DNA of 64,000 bases from Mycobacterium sp. NBC_00419. Its GTDB lineage: Bacteria; Actinomycetota; Actinomycetes; Mycobacteriales; Mycobacteriaceae. Positions 37,175 through 61,364 of the stretch are shown here, in pieces. Both the position numbers and the translations under genes were made by a program. Location: positions 682,001 to 746,000 of the forward strand of contig NZ_CP107931.1 in the NCBI RefSeq assembly GCF_036023875.1. The letters are read 5' to 3'. Each line of letters starts with the position of its first letter. Position 1 is the stretch's first letter. The notes below the pieces were generated by a model. That model had not been told where the DNA came from. It did not search any database and saw only the letters and a program-made list of their open reading frames with translations.

Positions 37175-38305
37175 TCAGGTCTCTCGCAGCGTGCAGGCCG
37201 CGGCCATGTTGGCCAGCGTCGACTGCACCCATGGGTCAATTCTGTTGTCGCACACGTGATCCTGTGCGGTCGCGACCAGCTCGTCGATCAGGTCCTCGAT
37301 CCACTCGACGGCGCCGGTCGCCACGATCAGGTTGCGCCACCGGGCGATGTCGGCGGTGCCGAGTTCCTCGGCATTCATCAGCTCGACGAACTGGCGGCGG
37401 ATCGTTCCATCGGCCATCTGATGGGCTGCGACGACGACACTGGTCGCCTTGCGCTCGGCGAGGTCCCCGCCGATGGGCTTTCCCGTTACCGAGGGTGTAC
37501 CGAATACGCCAAGAATGTCGTCCCGGAGCTGGAAGGCCTCGCCCACGGCGCTGCCGTACTCGCCCAGCGCACCGATGAGCTCCTCGCGACCGGACATCGC
37601 GGCGCCGATCTCCAGCGGCCTGCGCACCGTGTAGTTGCCCGACTTGCGGCGGGCGACGTCGAGCACCTGGTCCAACGTGGGCAGGGCGCCGTAGTCGTTG
37701 GCGACGTCGGCGAACTGGCCGACCGCGAGCTCGATACGCATCAGGTCGTAGCGTCGCCAGGCCCGCGCCAACGCGTCGGCGGAGACCCCGCTGTCGCGCA
37801 TCATCTGCTCGGCCCACACCAGACACAGATCCGACAGCAGGATCGCCGCCGAGGCGCCGAACCGCCACTGCGACCCGGACAGGCCGTTCTGGCGATGCCA
37901 CTGACCGAACTGGACATGCGCGGCGGGCTGTCCCCGGCGCATGTCCGAGTCGTCCATGACGTCGTCTTGCAGCAGGGCGAACGCGTGGAGCAGTTCCAGA
38001 CCGGCGCTGGCCCGCAGCGCGGCGTCGTCGGCCGGTGCCCCGCACAGCCAGCCCAGGTACATGAAGGTGGAGCGCAGGCACTTGCCCCCACCGACGAACT
38101 GGACCAGCACGTCGGCGGCGACGTCGATGCCGGCGCCGGCCAGTTGCGGGACGCAGTGGTTGTCGACGAAGTCGGCGACGTGGGCCAGGGCGCCGTGTCG
38201 CACGCCGTTACGCCAGATCTCGAACTGCGCGTCGTGTTCGGTGGCCACACCACTGGCGGTGGGCACACGCGCGCCGTTCAGCGAGACTGCGTCAGATGCG
38301 CGCAA
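37175..38305 (-). CDS. crtE: geranylgeranyl diphosphate synthase
   Basis: A 376-residue prenyl transferase, first enzyme of the pigment pathway. The first aspartate-rich motif is LLQDDVMDDSDMRRGQPAAH and the second is FQLRDDILGVFG; GGGKCLRSTF provides the diphosphate-binding lysine/arginine region. I start at TTG 38305, six bases after AAGGAG, since the ATGs further upstream lack a ribosome-binding site and would add 10-27 unrelated residues. First gene of the operon, behind a SigF-like promoter. Confidence 0.92.
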   Translation of the reverse strand: MRASDAVSLNGARVPTASGVATEHDAQFEIWRNGVRHGALAHVADFVDNHCVPQLAGAGIDVAADVLVQFVGGGKCLRSTFMYLGWLCGAPADDAALRASAGLELLHAFALLQDDVMDDSDMRRGQPAAHVQFGQWHRQNGLSGSQWRFGASAAILLSDLCLVWAEQMMRDSGVSADALARAWRRYDLMRIELAVGQFADVANDYGALPTLDQVLDVARRKSGNYTVRRPLEIGAAMSGREELIGALGEYGSAVGEAFQLRDDILGVFGTPSVTGKPIGGDLAERKATSVVVAAHQMADGTIRRQFVELMNAEELGTADIARWRNLIVATGAVEWIEDLIDELVATAQDHVCDNRIDPWVQSTLANMAAACTLRET

Positions 38306-38362
38306 TGGCTGCTCCTTCCCCGTGGCGGGCCACCTCGACCCGGGCCGAGCACCGTGCATGCG

Positions 38363-38387
38363 ATACCCCCCTGGATGCCGATGCAAC
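38363..38387 (-). promoter_or_regulatory. candidate SigF promoter of the carotenoid operon
   Basis: On the minus strand, GTTG (38387-38384), a 15-base spacer and GGGTAT (38368-38363) fit the mycobacterial SigF pattern GTTT-N15-17-GGGTAT with a perfect -10 and one mismatch in the -35. Transcription would start near 38356, about 50 bases before the crtE TTG. SigF control of carotenoid synthesis is known in M. smegmatis. Confidence 0.6.
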
Positions 38388-38533
38388 CAGACGGCGGTGC
38401 TCTTAGGTCCAATTCAAGGCGAGTGGTGACCCGGATGCCTTGTCAGAACGCACATGGTCACGTACGCGTAATTTTTCCCGGGCACCTGCGCAACACCCCG
38501 GAAAGCGGCTCTAGCTGCTGGAATACTGGTGGG

Positions 38534-38971
38534 ATGCAGACAGTCATGGACGACGCCGTCACCACTGCCGGATCGATCTCGACCACCACCAGTGCGGCGG
38601 TGGCGGGGTCTATCGCCACCGTGGGCAGCGTCGCCGTGGCGGGATCGATCGCCACGTCCGGCAGCGCCGCGGTGGGCGGATCGGTCGCGACCGCCGGCAG
38701 CGCGGCGGTGGCCGGGTCGTTGGCGACCGCGGGTAGCGCGGTGATCGCCGGCTCGGTCGCGACGGCGGGCAGTGCACTGATCGCGGGCTGTGTGATCACC
38801 GTGTTGTGCGCACTGATGCGGGAATGCGTCGGATGCGCGGCCTGCTTCGCATGCCGCAGATGTATGGCGTGCCTGGCCTGTGCCCGGTGCACCGACTGCG
38901 TGGGTTGCATCGGGTGCTACAACTGCTCGGGATTGCGCAACGCGGTGGGCGTCCGCAACGTACACGCCTGA
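38534..38971 (+). CDS. repeat protein with cysteine at every third residue
   Basis: No family recognised. A 145-residue protein in two repetitive parts. Residues 21-80 are five 12-residue repeats of the form AAVAGSIATVGS, with Ser, Thr or Val at every third place. Residues 86-131 continue the same three-residue register with cysteine: 14 Cys in all, 12 of them consecutive at spacing three (for example CRRCMACLACARCTDC). The end, SGLRNAVGVRN, keeps the register with Leu, Ala, Val, Val. The regular spacing suggests a stacked beta-helix or a metal- or thiol-rich surface. No signal peptide is obvious. A GAATACT hexamer region lies just before the ATG, suggesting a leaderless transcript. Divergent from crtE; an SDR gene follows 18 bases later. 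Confidence 0.75.
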   Translation: MQTVMDDAVTTAGSISTTTSAAVAGSIATVGSVAVAGSIATSGSAAVGGSVATAGSAAVAGSLATAGSAVIAGSVATAGSALIAGCVITVLCALMRECVGCAACFACRRCMACLACARCTDCVGCIGCYNCSGLRNAVGVRNVHA

Positions 38972-38989
38972 TCAGGCGGAGAGGCCGGC

Positions 38990-39730
38990 ATGACACAGCT
39001 GAGCGGGAAAGTCGCCCTGGTGACCGGAGCGTCGTCGGGACTCGGGGCGGCGGTGGCGCAGGTCTTCGCCGAACGGGGCGCCACGGTCTACGGGATCGCG
39101 CGCGACACCGACCGGATGGCAGGAGTGTTCGAATCCGTGCCCGGCGGTGCGTATGCGTCGATCGACATCACCAGCGCACAGGCCTGCCAGGATGCCGTCG
39201 CGGGCTGCATGGAGCAGTTCGGCAGGCTCGACGTCCTGGTCAACGCCGCGGGCTTCCACCAGATGCGCCACACCGCGTCCGTGGCCGACCAGGATTGGGA
39301 CTACGACCTGGCAGTCAACCTCAACGGACCGTTCTACCTGAGCCGGGCAGCACTGCCTCATCTGCTGGAGGTCGGCGGCAACATCGTCAACGTGGCCTCG
39401 ATCGCCGGGGTCGAGGGTGAGGTCTACTCGGCCGGTTACTGCGCCGCCAAGCACGGACTGGTCGGGCTCACCCGGGCGCTGGCCGTGGAGTTCACCAAGG
39501 AACAGCTGCGGGTCAACGTGGTGTGTCCCGGCGGGATGCTCACCCCGCAGGTGACGGAGTTCGCCACCCCGGACGACGCCGACTGGAATCTGATCATGCG
39601 CATCGCCGCACCCCGCGGAATGATGGACCCGCGCGACGTCGCCAAGGTGATCGCCTTCCTGGCCAGCGATGACGCCTCGACCATTCACGGCGCCGTCTAC
39701 AACGTCGACAACGGCAAGACCGCCGGCTAG
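38990..39730 (+). CDS. short-chain dehydrogenase/reductase
   Basis: A 246-residue classical SDR. The NAD(P) motif is VTGASSGLGAAV, with LVNAAGFHQM, the catalytic serine in VASIAGVEGE, and Tyr/Lys in YCAAKHGL. The GG at IHGAVYNVDNGKTAG is the usual C-terminal end. Substrate unknown. It sits 18 bases downstream of the Cys-repeat gene and probably shares its transcript. Confidence 0.9.
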   Translation: MTQLSGKVALVTGASSGLGAAVAQVFAERGATVYGIARDTDRMAGVFESVPGGAYASIDITSAQACQDAVAGCMEQFGRLDVLVNAAGFHQMRHTASVADQDWDYDLAVNLNGPFYLSRAALPHLLEVGGNIVNVASIAGVEGEVYSAGYCAAKHGLVGLTRALAVEFTKEQLRVNVVCPGGMLTPQVTEFATPDDADWNLIMRIAAPRGMMDPRDVAKVIAFLASDDASTIHGAVYNVDNGKTAG

Positions 39731-40901: not shown

Positions 40902-41333
40902 ATGGTCAAGGCAATTCGACGCGCATGGATTCCGGTGGTCATCATCATCGTGGTGGCCATCGCGGGTTTCTCGGTGTTTCGGCTGCATGGGGTGTTCGGC
41001 AAGACCGAACTCACCCGGCCCGGCAGCGGCCTGGCCAACGACACCAAGCCGTTCAATCCCAAGCAGGTGACCTACGAGATCTTCGGTCCGCAGGGCGCGG
41101 TAGCGACCGTCAACTACCTCGATCTCGATGCCCAGCCCCAGATCGCGCGTGATGTCACGCTGCCGTGGTCGGTCACGCTGACCACGACCGCCCCCGCGGC
41201 CAGCGCCAATGTGGTCGCCCAGGGTGACACCGACACCATCGGCTGCCGCATCCTGGTCGACGGCGTCCTCAAGGACGAGAAGACCTCGTCCGGGGTCAAC
41301 GCACAAACCTTCTGTCTGGTGAAGTCCGCGTGA
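40902..41333 (+). CDS. mmpS: MmpS accessory membrane protein
   Basis: A 143-residue protein with one N-terminal membrane helix ([18 protein letters not shown]) and an extracytoplasmic domain of the MmpS fold: [25 protein letters not shown] and two cysteines (GCRILVDG and FCLVKS) that likely form a disulfide. MmpS proteins assist the partner MmpL in exporting lipids or siderophores. The mmpL GTG overlaps its stop. Confidence 0.93.
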
Positions 41334-44221
41334 GCCGGCCACCCGGAGCGCACCCGCGGATTCCCCGGTTTGTCCGGAGTTTCGCCGTGCCCATCGTGCT
41401 GTTCTGGATCGGCCTCGTCGTCGTCCTGAGCGTCGCGGTCCCCCCGCTCGAGCAGGTGAGCCAGGAGCACACGGTCTCGCTGGCGCCCGACGACGCGCCG
41501 TCGATGCAGGCGATGAAGCGGGTCGGTAAGGACTTCCAGGAGTTCGACTCCAACAGCAGCGCGATGATCCTGCTGGAGGGCGATCAGCCGCTGGGCGCCG
41601 AGGCCCACCGGTACTACGACGGCCTGATCCAGAAGCTGCGCGACGACCCCAAGCACGTCGAGCACATCCAGGATTTCTGGGGCGATCCGCTGACCGCCGC
41701 CGGCTCCCAGAGTGCGGACGGCAAAGCCGCCTACGTCCAGGTGTATCTGGCCGGCAACCAGGGCGAGAGCCTGGCCAACGAGTCTGTCGACGCCGTGCAG
41801 AAGATCGTCACGGCCAACCCGCCCCCGGCCGGGATCAAGGTCTACGTCACCGGCCCGACAGCACTGAGTCACGACCAGCACAACGTCGGCGACTCGGCGG
41901 TCAAGGTCGTCGAGATGGTGACCATCGGCGTGATCTTCGTGATGTTGCTGCTGGTCTACCGCTCGATCGTCACCACGATCCTGGTGCTGGTGATGGTCTT
42001 CCTGGAACTGACCGCGGCCCGGGGGGTCATCGCGTTCCTGGGCAACGCCGAGGTCATCGGTCTGTCGACGTTCGCGGTCAACCTGCTGGCGACCCTGTCG
42101 ATCGCCGCGGCCACCGACTACGCGATATTCCTGTTCGGGCGCTATCACGAGGCCCGCCTGGACGGCGAAGATCGCGAAACCGCGTTCTACACCATGTACC
42201 ACGGCACAGCCCACGTGATCCTGGGCTCGGGCCTGACCATCGCTGGTGCGACGTTCTGCCTGCATTTCACGCGCCTGCCCTACTTCAAGTCGCTGGGCTT
42301 CCCGTTGGCCATCGGCATGCTCGTCGTGGTGTTCGCGGCGCTGACATTCGGGCCCGCGGTCATCGCGATCGGCAGCCGGTTCAGAAAGGTCTTCGAGCCC
42401 AAGCGGAAGATGAACACCCACACGTGGCGCCGGGTGGGCACCGCGGTGGTCCGCTGGCCCGGCCCCATCCTGGTCGCCTCGATCGCGCTGGCGTTGGTCG
42501 GCCTCCTCGCCCTGCCGTCGTATACGACCAACTACAACGACCGCAATTACCTGCCCAAGGACATCCCGGCCAATATCGGCTACGCCGCGGCGGACCGGCA
42601 TTTCCCGCAGGCGCGGATGAATCCCGAACTGCTGCTGATCGAGACCGACCACGACGTGCGCAACCCGGCGGACATGCTGGTGATCGACCGCATCGCCAAG
42701 AATGTCTTCCATATCCCGGGCATCGGACGGGTGCAGACCATCACCCGCCCGCTGGGCACGCCGATCGAGCACACCTCGATCCCGTTCATCATCAGCATGT
42801 CGGGCACCAACCAGACGATGAACATGTCCTACCTGCAGGACCGCATGAAGGACATGCTCAAGATGGGTGACGAGCTGCAGGTCAGCATCGACACCATGGA
42901 ACGCATGCTGGCCCTGACCAAGCAGATGGTGGGCGTCACCCACGACATGGTGGCCAAGACCAAGCAGATGGTGGCCGACACCAACGAGATCCGGGACCAC
43001 CTGGCCGATTTCGACGACTTCTTCCGGCCGATCCGCAACTACCTGTACTGGGAGCCGCACTGCTTCGACATCCCGATCTGCTGGTCGTTGCGCTCGATCT
43101 TCGACAGCCTGGACGGGATCGACACTCTCAGTGACGATCTGGCGTCACTGGTCGTCGACATGGACAGGCTCGACGTCCTGATGCCGAAGATGGTCCAGGT
43201 CATGCCGCCGATGATCGCGACCATGAAGAGCATGAAGGCGTCGATGCTGACGATGCAGTCGACGATGAACGGCTTCCAGGACCAGATGCAGGCGATGCAG
43301 GACAACGCGACCGCGATGGGACAGGCCTTCGACGCCTCGAAGAACGACGACTCGTTCTACCTGCCGCCGGAAGTCTTCGACAATCCCGACTTCAAGCGCG
43401 GCCTCAAGATGTTCGTCTCTCCGGACGGAAAAGCGGTGCGGTTCATCATCTCTCACGAGGGTGACCCCGCGACGCCGGAAGGCATCTCGCACATCGACAA
43501 GATCAAGAACGCCGCGTTCGAAGCCCTCAAGGGCAGCCCGCTGGAGGGTTCCAAGGTCTTCATGGGCGGCACCGCGTCGGTCTACAAGGACATGCAGAAC
43601 GGCGCCAACTACGACCTGCTGATCGCCGGGATCGCCGCGCTGTGCCTGATCTTCGTGATCATGCTGGTGATCACCCGAAGCATCGTCGCCGCGGCGGTGA
43701 TCGTGGGCACCGTGGTCTTGTCGCTGGGCGCGTCGTTCGGGTTGTCGGTGCTGTTGTGGCAGCACATCCTCGGCCAGCCACTGCACTGGCTCGTCCTCGC
43801 CATGGCCGTGATCATCCTGCTGGCGGTCGGATCGGACTACAACCTGCTGCTGGTCGCGCGGTTCAAAGAAGAGATCCACGCCGGACTCAACACCGGTATC
43901 ATCCGGGCAATGGCTGGCAGCGGTTCAGTGGTGACGTCAGCCGGCCTGGTGTTCGCGTTCACCATGGGCTCGATGCTCATCAGCCCGCTGCGGGTGGGCG
44001 GCCAGGTCGGGACGACGATCGCGCTCGGCCTGCTGTTCGACACACTGATCGTGCGGTCGTTCATGACACCGTCGATCGCCGCGCTGCTGGGCAAATGGTT
44101 CTGGTGGCCGCAGCGGGTGCGTCAACGCCCGCTGCCACAACAGTGGCCGTCGCCCCGCGACGACTCGGACAATACGGATCGGCTATCCGTGGGCGCGAGC
44201 CCTGAAGGAGGTTCTACATGA
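41330..44221 (+). CDS. mmpL: MmpL family RND transporter
   Basis: A 963-residue RND-type exporter with about eleven or twelve membrane helices in two halves. The first half has the helix-pair with [27 protein letters not shown] carrying the proton-relay Asp-Tyr; the second repeats it as [21 protein letters not shown] methionine-rich coiled-coil region spans about residues 480-670, as in the MmpL4/MmpL5 group that works with MmpS proteins. Probable substrates in that group are siderophores and glycopeptidolipids; which one applies here is not visible. Uses GTG 41330, overlapping mmpS. Confidence 0.95.
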
Positions 44222-59780: not shown

Positions 59781-61364
59781 ATGATGACTGATGACGTGTG
59801 CGCCGGCCGTCGGCTAGGCGGTCTCTTTCGGGTCGCACCGGTGGTGACCTTGGGGGCGTTAGCCAGCGCCGGGATGATGTTGATGATCCCGCCGGGGGCG
59901 GAGTCGCTCTACCCCGCCGCACCCGTCGCGCAGGTGCAGCTACGGACCGCCAATGTCGAGCTGACCAGTTCCTCGGGTGGTCTCCTGGGGTCCGTCGTCG
60001 GCTTTCTGATCGGTAACGGGACACAGACGCATCCGAACGCGGGTGTGCTGATCGGCAGCGGCTACAACTACACCGCGGCGGATGACGTCTACTGCACGTC
60101 GCATGTCTGCAATGGCGGCAACGCCGGCCTGCTCTTCGGCAACGGTGGCAGCGGTTGGAGCCCCTTCGCGGGCTCGGGTCTGGCCGCCGGCAACGGCGGA
60201 AACGCCGCCTTGCTCCTCGGCAACGCCGGCAATGGCGGCGACGGTGCCGACGCCGCGTACACATTTGCCCAGCCCTTCGTGCGGACTGGGGCCGCCACGG
60301 CTGGTGGACGGGGTGGCCGCGCCGGGTTGTTCGGCAACGGTGGCATCGGCGGCAACGGCGGTGAAGATCGTGGTGGCAGGGACCAGACCGATCACTCGGT
60401 GGGCGCCAACGGTGGCGCGGGCGGAAGCGGTGGCCTGCTCTGGGGTGACGGCGGCGCAGGCGGCGCAGGTGGTTATGCCGAGAACCGCGTCGCGACTCCC
60501 ACCCCCACCAACAACAAGGCCACTGGCGGTTCCGGTGGCGAAGGCGGAAGCACCGGCCTGTTCGGCACCGGCGGCGCCGGTGGAGCCGGTGCCAAAGCCC
60601 TAGCGGACTCTGGCGTCGCCACTGGCGGCGATGGCGCTGACGGTGGACGCGGCGGCCTCCTGTTGGGCAACGGCGGCGCCGGTGGCAACGGCGGCGGCTA
60701 TACCCCCAGCACAAATCCGGACGACTGGTACAAGTTCGGGGTTCTCTCCGGCGTCCTGTACGCAGCCGGTGGGAACGGCGGCACCGGCGGCGACGCGACC
60801 ATCGGCTCCGGCGGTCTGGCCGGCGGCGGCGGCTCGGCGGCGTCAAACGAAGGCACCGCCGGCGGCGGCAACGGCGGCAACGGCGGTAGTGCCCGGTTCG
60901 CCGGCCAGGGCCAGTCCGGCGGTACCGGCGGAGGCGCTGTCAGCTTGCTCGGTCTCACTCAGGGCGGGGCAGGCGGCAACGGCGGTGCCAGCTTCCTCAG
61001 TCTCATCCGCGCGGCTTCCGGCGGCGCAGGCGGTGACGCCATGACTGCTAACGCTGGTGGCGGGGCCGCCCATGGCGGTAAGGGCGGCACCGGCGGTAAA
61101 GGCGGGCTGTTCGCCGTCGGCGGCACCGGCGGGGCCGGCGGTTCGCTCTCGAACCTTCCCATCTGGCATAACGCGGCGAATGGTGAGGCTGGCAACGGCG
61201 GCACCGGCGGCAGAGGCGGCCTCTTCGCCAACGGTGGCCGCGGCGGCGGCGGCGGCAACGCCAAGTCGCCGGGCTCCGGGGTGACACCCGGCACGGGCGG
61301 CTTCGGCGGACCCGGCGGCTTCGGCGGCCAGCCGGGTCAAACCGGCGCCAACGGCACCACGTAG
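59781..61364 (+). CDS. PGRS protein without PE domain
   Basis: A 527-residue protein. The N-terminus has a hydrophobic segment that could be a signal or anchor (VAPVVTLGALASAGMMLMI, residues 18-36). Residues 60-100 form a short entry domain (GGLLGSVVGFLIGNGTQTHPNAGVLIGSGY, then two Cys). From about 110 to the end it is Gly-rich PGRS sequence: repeats of GGxGGxGG with LFGNGG, LLLGNGG and AGGAGG units that form stacked polyproline-type sheets in structural models. It lacks the 100-residue PE domain usual for PGRS proteins. The ATG at 59781 follows GGGGGGGAA. Cell-surface location is expected. Confidence 0.84.
   Translation: MMTDDVCAGRRLGGLFRVAPVVTLGALASAGMMLMIPPGAESLYPAAPVAQVQLRTANVELTSSSGGLLGSVVGFLIGNGTQTHPNAGVLIGSGYNYTAADDVYCTSHVCNGGNAGLLFGNGGSGWSPFAGSGLAAGNGGNAALLLGNAGNGGDGADAAYTFAQPFVRTGAATAGGRGGRAGLFGNGGIGGNGGEDRGGRDQTDHSVGANGGAGGSGGLLWGDGGAGGAGGYAENRVATPTPTNNKATGGSGGEGGSTGLFGTGGAGGAGAKALADSGVATGGDGADGGRGGLLLGNGGAGGNGGGYTPSTNPDDWYKFGVLSGVLYAAGGNGGTGGDATIGSGGLAGGGGSAASNEGTAGGGNGGNGGSARFAGQGQSGGTGGGAVSLLGLTQGGAGGNGGASFLSLIRAASGGAGGDAMTANAGGGAAHGGKGGTGGKGGLFAVGGTGGAGGSLSNLPIWHNAANGEAGNGGTGGRGGLFANGGRGGGGGNAKSPGSGVTPGTGGFGGPGGFGGQPGQTGANGTT

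Follow-up and report, generated by a model that had tools for sequence, protein, structure and literature searches.

A Conserved Mycobacterial Protein with a Ladder of Twelve Cysteines and a Predicted Beta-Solenoid Fold

In a 64,000-nucleotide stretch of the genome of Mycobacterium sp. NBC_00419 (contig NZ_CP107931.1, positions 682,001 to 746,000 of the forward strand; hereafter, the window, in whose coordinates all positions are given), we characterized a gene whose small protein product carries cysteine at twelve consecutive positions, each three residues from the next. The gene belongs to a conserved family, selection on its protein is well supported by codon comparisons, and the chain probably folds into a β-solenoid of 12 residues per coil with the cysteines pointing into the core. 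We tentatively propose that the protein is a rigid, prefolded, metallothionein-like or Csp-like store of metal or thiol, with a thiolate core for a soft metal, Cu(I) in the first place. The preliminary description of this gene, made without database searches, is partly supported by our analysis.

Results

The coding part (38534-38968) translates into 145 residues, and the open frame extends upstream of both candidate ATG starts (38534 and 38546). Cysteines are found at residues 86 and 92, the two early ladder cysteines of the Ser/Thr-rich part, and then at spacing three from 98 and 101 through to 131 (Table 1). This uninterrupted run of twelve had been recognized in the preliminary description; in 20,000 composition-preserving shuffles a run at this spacing never exceeded five, a length reached in six of them. 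The three-residue register described earlier for the chain was likewise confirmed, with 12 as its strongest period: self-identity peaked at a lag of 12 (0.50), followed by 24 (0.41), 6 (0.37), and 18 (0.31), and Tandem Repeats Finder reported a DNA period of 36 over 38567-38772. The earlier outline fails at the tail, which had been assigned to a Leu/Ala/Val register and instead presents Ser132, Arg135, Val138, Arg141, and His144. This region holds the cap SGLRNAVG, in which G, R, and G are invariant among the 24 and the 22 sequences compared, the one from the window included.

Table 1. Features of the cysteine-ladder gene and its surroundings in the window
Feature	Position	Strand	Remarks
Gene of the predicted Cys-cored solenoid protein	38534..38971	+	145 aa plus stop; alternative start ATG 38546; conserved family, codon-level selection
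Ser/Thr/Val coils, residues 14-97	38573..38824	+	about seven predicted 12-residue coils, inward Ser-Thr-Ser-Val ladder
Cys ladder, residues 98-131	38825..38926	+	12 Cys over three predicted coils, four in each
C-terminal cap, residues 132-145, SGLRNAVGVRNVHA	38927..38968	+	conserved
crtE-type polyprenyl synthase	37175..38386	-	divergent neighbor; longest open reading frame, true start maybe further in
crtE/Cys-gene intergenic stretch	38412..38474		blocks ATTCAAG.CGA, CACATGGTCA, and GTAA conserved in other crtE-linked loci
SDR, 246 aa	38990..39730	+	start 18 bases past the stop of the Cys gene

A single AlphaFold2 run (93 alignment rows) modeled the protein as a β-solenoid with 12 residues per coil (predicted local distance difference test score, 77), comprising seven 9-residue strands at 12-residue spacing between residues 10 and 90 and no helix. 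The Val/Ser/Thr repeats of 12 residues had previously been counted as five; the repeats themselves stand, and these strands predict about seven units. The model could be structurally aligned to the antifreeze protein of the beetle Tenebrio molitor (1ezg) over 81 of 82 residues.

The residue composition of the relatives bears on the orientation of the ladder. Codon and cell counts were based on 103 loci kept by an anchor and redundancy filter, reduced to 92 nonredundant loci for the ratio of nonsynonymous to synonymous substitution rates (dN/dS) and to 82 for alignment cells. Cysteine occupied 969 of the 984 ladder cells of the Cys block and a charged residue none, so the spacing on which the preliminary description had built is conserved in the relatives. 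At the two in-between positions of this block, charged residues made up 10.6% and 24.1% of cells and large ones 41% and 36%. The ladder of the Ser/Thr part consisted mainly of Ser (629), Thr (313), and Val (302 of 1,308 cells), and only 1.2% and 2.4% of the outward cells there were charged; the window protein itself has no charged residue from position 8 to 95. The share of small residues (S, T, V, A, C, G) among ladder cells was 99.4% for the Cys block and 96.6% for the Ser/Thr part. For 72 of 103 members, the ladder ahead of the twelve cysteines was estimated, linker included, to span 7 to 9.25 coils. The in/out pattern published for the beetle coil (PMC8038014) matches this ladder composition. 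The ladder residues likely face inward, and we regard a solenoid with an inward-facing cysteine core, as predicted by the model, with good though not full confidence. The small β-helix with a ladder of like residues envisaged in the preliminary description reappears in this predicted fold; the orientation of the ladder is what we infer.

Protein-level selection was examined across the family. The median dN/dS was 0.32 in frame and 0.48 after removal of the ladder codons. The remaining two forward frames gave 1.13 and 1.67, and the antisense frames 1.50, 0.52, and 1.78. The antisense value of 0.52 belongs to the frame shifted by one and is read as a shadow of third codon positions; that frame contains stops in 40 of 102 loci. 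Differences at codon positions 1, 2, and 3 amounted to 70,359, 56,678, and 119,496, respectively, and the 1,104 ladder codons included 842 TGC and 247 TGT. The 102 loci of the stop analysis were chosen for a sense frame that runs open for 90 codons or more up to the cap, which makes their zero sense stops a matter of construction; the five remaining frames had stops in 38 to 91 of them. In a 12% sample of 59 pairs with at least 75% identity, whose 420-base stretches lie partly upstream of the gene, the commonest internal gap was 36 bases, equivalent to one coil (9 of 48 gaps), and only 28 of the 48 gaps were divisible by three. The codons bear the marks of selection on the protein, which speaks against the possibility, considered in the preliminary description, that the frame is not translated.

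The gene is present as a single copy in its own genome. Matches were found in 27 of 61 genomes of a first sample. Of these, 23, counting the genome of the window itself, come from the same genus (37 genomes sampled), and the remaining four are weak. A genus sample gave matches at E ≤ 0.001 in 136 of 296 genomes, nine of them weak (E > 1e-20). Of the 396 genomes in a phylum sample, 42 matched, those outside the genus mostly weakly and on the repeats; for the part of the weak matches to which a locus was assigned, the Cys block was recovered outside the genus in at least four genomes (G600, G375, G634, and G649, with ladders of 9, 9, 10, and 8 cysteines, respectively). A genome collection contained 207 stretches encoding the protein. 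The best 80 of these, which together with the window form the 81 loci discussed below, derive mainly from Mycobacterium and Mycolicibacterium and also from Pseudonocardia, Actinomycetospora, and actinobacterial metagenome-assembled genomes (MAGs); two (L075 and L094) are labeled as Bifidobacterium breve MAGs, labels that are doubtful.

In a predicted-protein collection, phmmer, drawing on at most 7,990 candidates per query, retrieved at least 14 proteins with the whole protein and at least 40 with a 22-row alignment, several of them with long N-terminal extensions resembling wrong starts. Residues 84-145 alone found 4 proteins, from 4 candidates, among 5.77 billion predicted proteins. To be considered in this protein search, a sequence must have five-residue words in common with the query and be 0.55 to 1.75 times as long in total, and relatives that are distant or much longer escape it. 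Since close relatives share such words (DCVGC) and should be candidates, we conclude that they mostly have no entry among the predicted proteins of this collection; annotation pipelines seem to lose this family.

No Pfam or NCBIfam model matched the window protein at E ≤ 1, no PDB sequence did at E ≤ 0.001 (the best, at E 0.23, was a hexapeptide transferase), and no bacterial 12-residue solenoid with a Cys core was described in the open-access literature searched. Within these model collections and this literature, the earlier remark that no described family with this build was known holds. A tblastn search of plasmids and phages with the window protein gave no match, the low-complexity filter weakening this search. 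A left-handed hexapeptide β-helix was rejected, with no Pfam match at E ≤ 1 and a period of 12 rather than 18, as was a ferredoxin (Fer4), with no Pfam or NCBIfam match at the same threshold. Pfam Collagen matched 3 of 22 family rows (best E 0.00044), which we read as Gly-repeat composition. Five further proteins (P0010, P0017, P0029, P0033, and P0034, the last named as from Candidatus Dormiibacterota) have similar Ser/Thr repeats. By eye, a hydrophobic N-terminal segment precedes the repeats in all of them except P0017, which is the sole one with a longer Cys ladder.

Both the divergent crtE-type gene and the closely following SDR gene lie next to the Cys gene as previously described. As a general trait, the link to a carotenoid operon did not hold up: crtE was the immediate called upstream neighbor in only 10 of 81 loci and a crtI-like gene in six more, and since the neighbors vary, this link is not general. 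Neighbor genes were called by a GC-position rule, so that ends are approximate and genes may be missed, and representatives of the locus contexts were checked by Pfam. An SDR gene lies next to the Cys gene in 18 of the 81 loci; in 14 of them it is located downstream (including L030-L036, L038, L039, and L044, with L033 and L034 being one isolate) and in 4 upstream (L079, L080, L091, and L097), with different outer neighbors in the two arrangements. The linked SDRs are 78 to 90% identical to that of the window; the change in gene order speaks for a link of the two genes, within one group and not family-wide.

Grouped by context, 21 of the 81 loci lie at an sdh-type operon, 28 have some of crt, SDR, and mmpS/L, and 32 have neither. 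Pfam recognized flavoprotein and iron-sulfur subunits in the sdh group, and its third gene (279 aa) had no match at E ≤ 1e-5. The 113 neighbors of the 32 partnerless loci showed no widely common Pfam family among the 25 of 95 families listed; NUDIX was the most frequent (8), followed by enoyl-CoA hydratase, AAA, and β-lactamase-fold (5 each), partly from closely related species.

In a ten-locus alignment, the blocks of the crtE/Cys-gene intergenic stretch were seen in the window, L037, L052, L062, L075, L094, and L095 and were not clear in L031, L058, and L070; they are possible candidates for promoter and operator sequences of the crt operon. An RNA element was rejected, as Rfam gave no match in 38200-39100, and the region contained no terminator-like site. 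Elsewhere in the window, a 42-base tandem repeat (42900-42987) lies within a gene that we read as MmpL-like (41330-44221), and 60332-61328 contains a 48-base tandem repeat together with several of 9 bases, presumably as in a Gly-rich PE-PGRS-like gene.

Cysteine ladders were also found in phages. PHROG_15341 matched the window protein at E 6.3e-6 (residues 85-135 to positions 35-85 of a 276-position profile), a match that may reflect the Cys spacing and nothing else. The search for other Cys-Xaa-Xaa ladder proteins suggested in the preliminary description returned the viral contigs L158, L159, L178, L193, L204, L209, L237, and L257 among the matches listed, along with many further pattern matches that resemble simple-repeat translations. 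PHROG_15341 and the other phage ladder proteins share the uninterrupted Cys-Xaa-Xaa pattern with the window protein, reaching 53 cysteines in L178, but they are mostly polar between the cysteines and have other end domains, and Ser/Thr coils were not seen in those read. All nine ladder proteins compared (a set without L193 and L209) matched PHROG_15341; none of ten matched Pfam at E ≤ 0.1, and a 12-residue period gave no clear signal in 19 ladders. Their end domains also occur in a Flavobacterium phage and a Paenibacillus phage, and a Campylobacter plasmid shows a weak match to the ladder region of L204.

Discussion

We favor, with a confidence that falls somewhat short of even, a protein with a thiolate core for a soft metal. 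The small protein would probably be kept inside the cell and form a β-solenoid in coils of 12 residues, of which every third aims into a narrow core. About seven coils would have a Ser-Thr-Ser-Val core, the last three would present cysteine at all four inward sites, and the SGLRNAVG cap would seal the end of the solenoid. The twelve packed thiols would then most likely bind a soft metal as thiolates, with Cu(I) ranked ahead of Zn(II) or an Fe-S cluster. With no signal peptide visible by eye in the window protein and a reducing cytosol, metal ligands would best explain the twelve axial thiols. Cysteines stacked in such a core would lie about 4.7 Å apart, the rise of one coil, which would suit a linear S-Cu-S geometry. 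Intracellular location, reduced thiols, metal binding, and the identity of the metal are what we infer.

Three observations weigh against such a store and account for our reserve. No metal gene recurs nearby, and no conserved metal or modification partner was found among the neighbors listed; the outside is uncharged and hydrophobic, which sits poorly with a simple soluble store; and one subgroup of relatives begins with a short hydrophobic stretch. A bolder version, unlikely in our judgment, would make the family a new class of metalloprotein whose continuous thiolate stack holds a polynuclear chain of Cu(I), Zn, or Fe-S like a wire. Phages would then have a longer version with a polar outside, and the actinobacterial Ser/Thr coils would form a hydrophobic stalk seating the thiolate head at the membrane.

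The best placed of the alternatives to a metal core, though itself improbable, is an oxidized cysteine ladder whose only role is to pin together one end of a solenoid at the cell surface or in the envelope. The beetle type, in which C2 and C8 are bridged in each coil, agrees in the length of its coils and in their inward spacing. The hydrophobic outside would fit an envelope or self-assembling protein, and so would the hydrophobic N-terminal segments of P0010, P0029, P0033, P0034, and the subgroup of relatives, but the window protein starts without a recognizable signal peptide. Moreover, each coil would hold four inward cysteines instead of the two in the beetle protein, and two crossed bridges look strained.

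More doubtful still is a purely structural or self-assembling solenoid of a membrane or fiber, with a hydrophobic Ala/Val/Gly wall, a polar core supplying hydrogen bonds, and the cysteines as small residues that pack well. The uncharged stretch of the window protein, the scarcity of charge in the outward cells of the Ser/Thr part, and the length of the ladder before the cysteines all agree with such a role. It would leave unexplained why twelve sites are nearly all cysteine, though the same predicted fold upstream takes Ser, Thr, and Val.

We consider it very improbable that the gene encodes the precursor of a ribosomally made modified peptide, whether a thiazole/oxazole peptide with Cys-Xaa-Xaa or a lanthipeptide. 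Ser, Thr, and Cys at each third place would be the residues to be modified, and one report describes a Bacillus family of Cys-Xaa-Xaa precursors whose genes lie far from those of the enzymes and of which one member had escaped annotation (PMC2674419). However, the host genome, listed as 100% complete, has no match to YcaO (control, 5 of 14 genomes) and none to LanC-like proteins (control, 1 of 14), so that neither the thiazole/oxazole reading nor that of a LanC-dependent peptide is tenable, the LanC test covering LanC-dependent lanthipeptides only. Furthermore, no modification enzyme was recognized as a common neighbor among those listed, and conservation extends across most of the chain and the cap, with no leader/core split visible.

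An equally slim chance is given to a cysteine-responsive attenuator, in which translation of the Cys codons would sense cysteine and control the gene downstream. Short polycysteine open reading frames reportedly act in this way in mycobacteria, and the SDR gene starts very close to the stop. Against this, selection extends to the non-Cys codons, the chain is 145 residues long with a conserved cap behind the cysteines, the family has no common downstream gene (SDR in 14 of 81 loci), and the region showed neither a terminator-like site nor an Rfam match. Least likely of all is ice binding as in the beetle proteins: the coils are equally long and the predicted fold is alike, but the outward Thr array is absent, Thr filling 26 of 1,307 and 8 of 1,308 outward cells in the Ser/Thr part.

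If the proposed core binds metal, the protein would provide a thiolate core in a β-solenoid, a scaffold without description in the open-access literature searched, with direct use in metal-storage biology and protein design. Otherwise, its interest would lie in a predicted 12-residue coil of the beetle antifreeze type in a bacterial protein, a repeat not identified in bacterial antifreeze proteins according to PMC8038014.

Several known systems resemble the window protein in part. The mycobacterial metallothionein MymT is likewise small and Cys rich; at 4.9 kDa and with no ladder or solenoid in the description available, it is set apart from our protein. Heterocycloanthracin-type precursors have cysteine mostly at each third residue and are easily missed by gene callers (PMC2674419), but they need a cyclodehydratase set, and the host genome lacks a YcaO match. 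The Tenebrio antifreeze protein (TCTxSxNCxxAx) shares the 12-residue coil, small inward residues three apart, and core cysteines. It differs in its outward Thr array, Thr making up just 34 of 2,615 outward cells in the Ser/Thr part of the family studied here, and the bacterial window protein is predicted to have a Ser-Thr-Ser-Val core in most coils and four cysteines in each of just the final three. Csp1 and Csp3 carry many Cu(I)-binding cysteines inside a protein that folds without metal, and they illustrate that cysteines concentrated in the interior of a protein can serve to store Cu(I) (PMC7558416); theirs is a four-helix bundle, whereas a β-solenoid without helix is predicted here. The Thr array of the one type and the four-helix bundle of the other were both sought and are lacking, and the window protein is therefore a member of neither. 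By prediction it would be Tenebrio-like in shape, and by analogy it may be a Csp-like thiol store inside.
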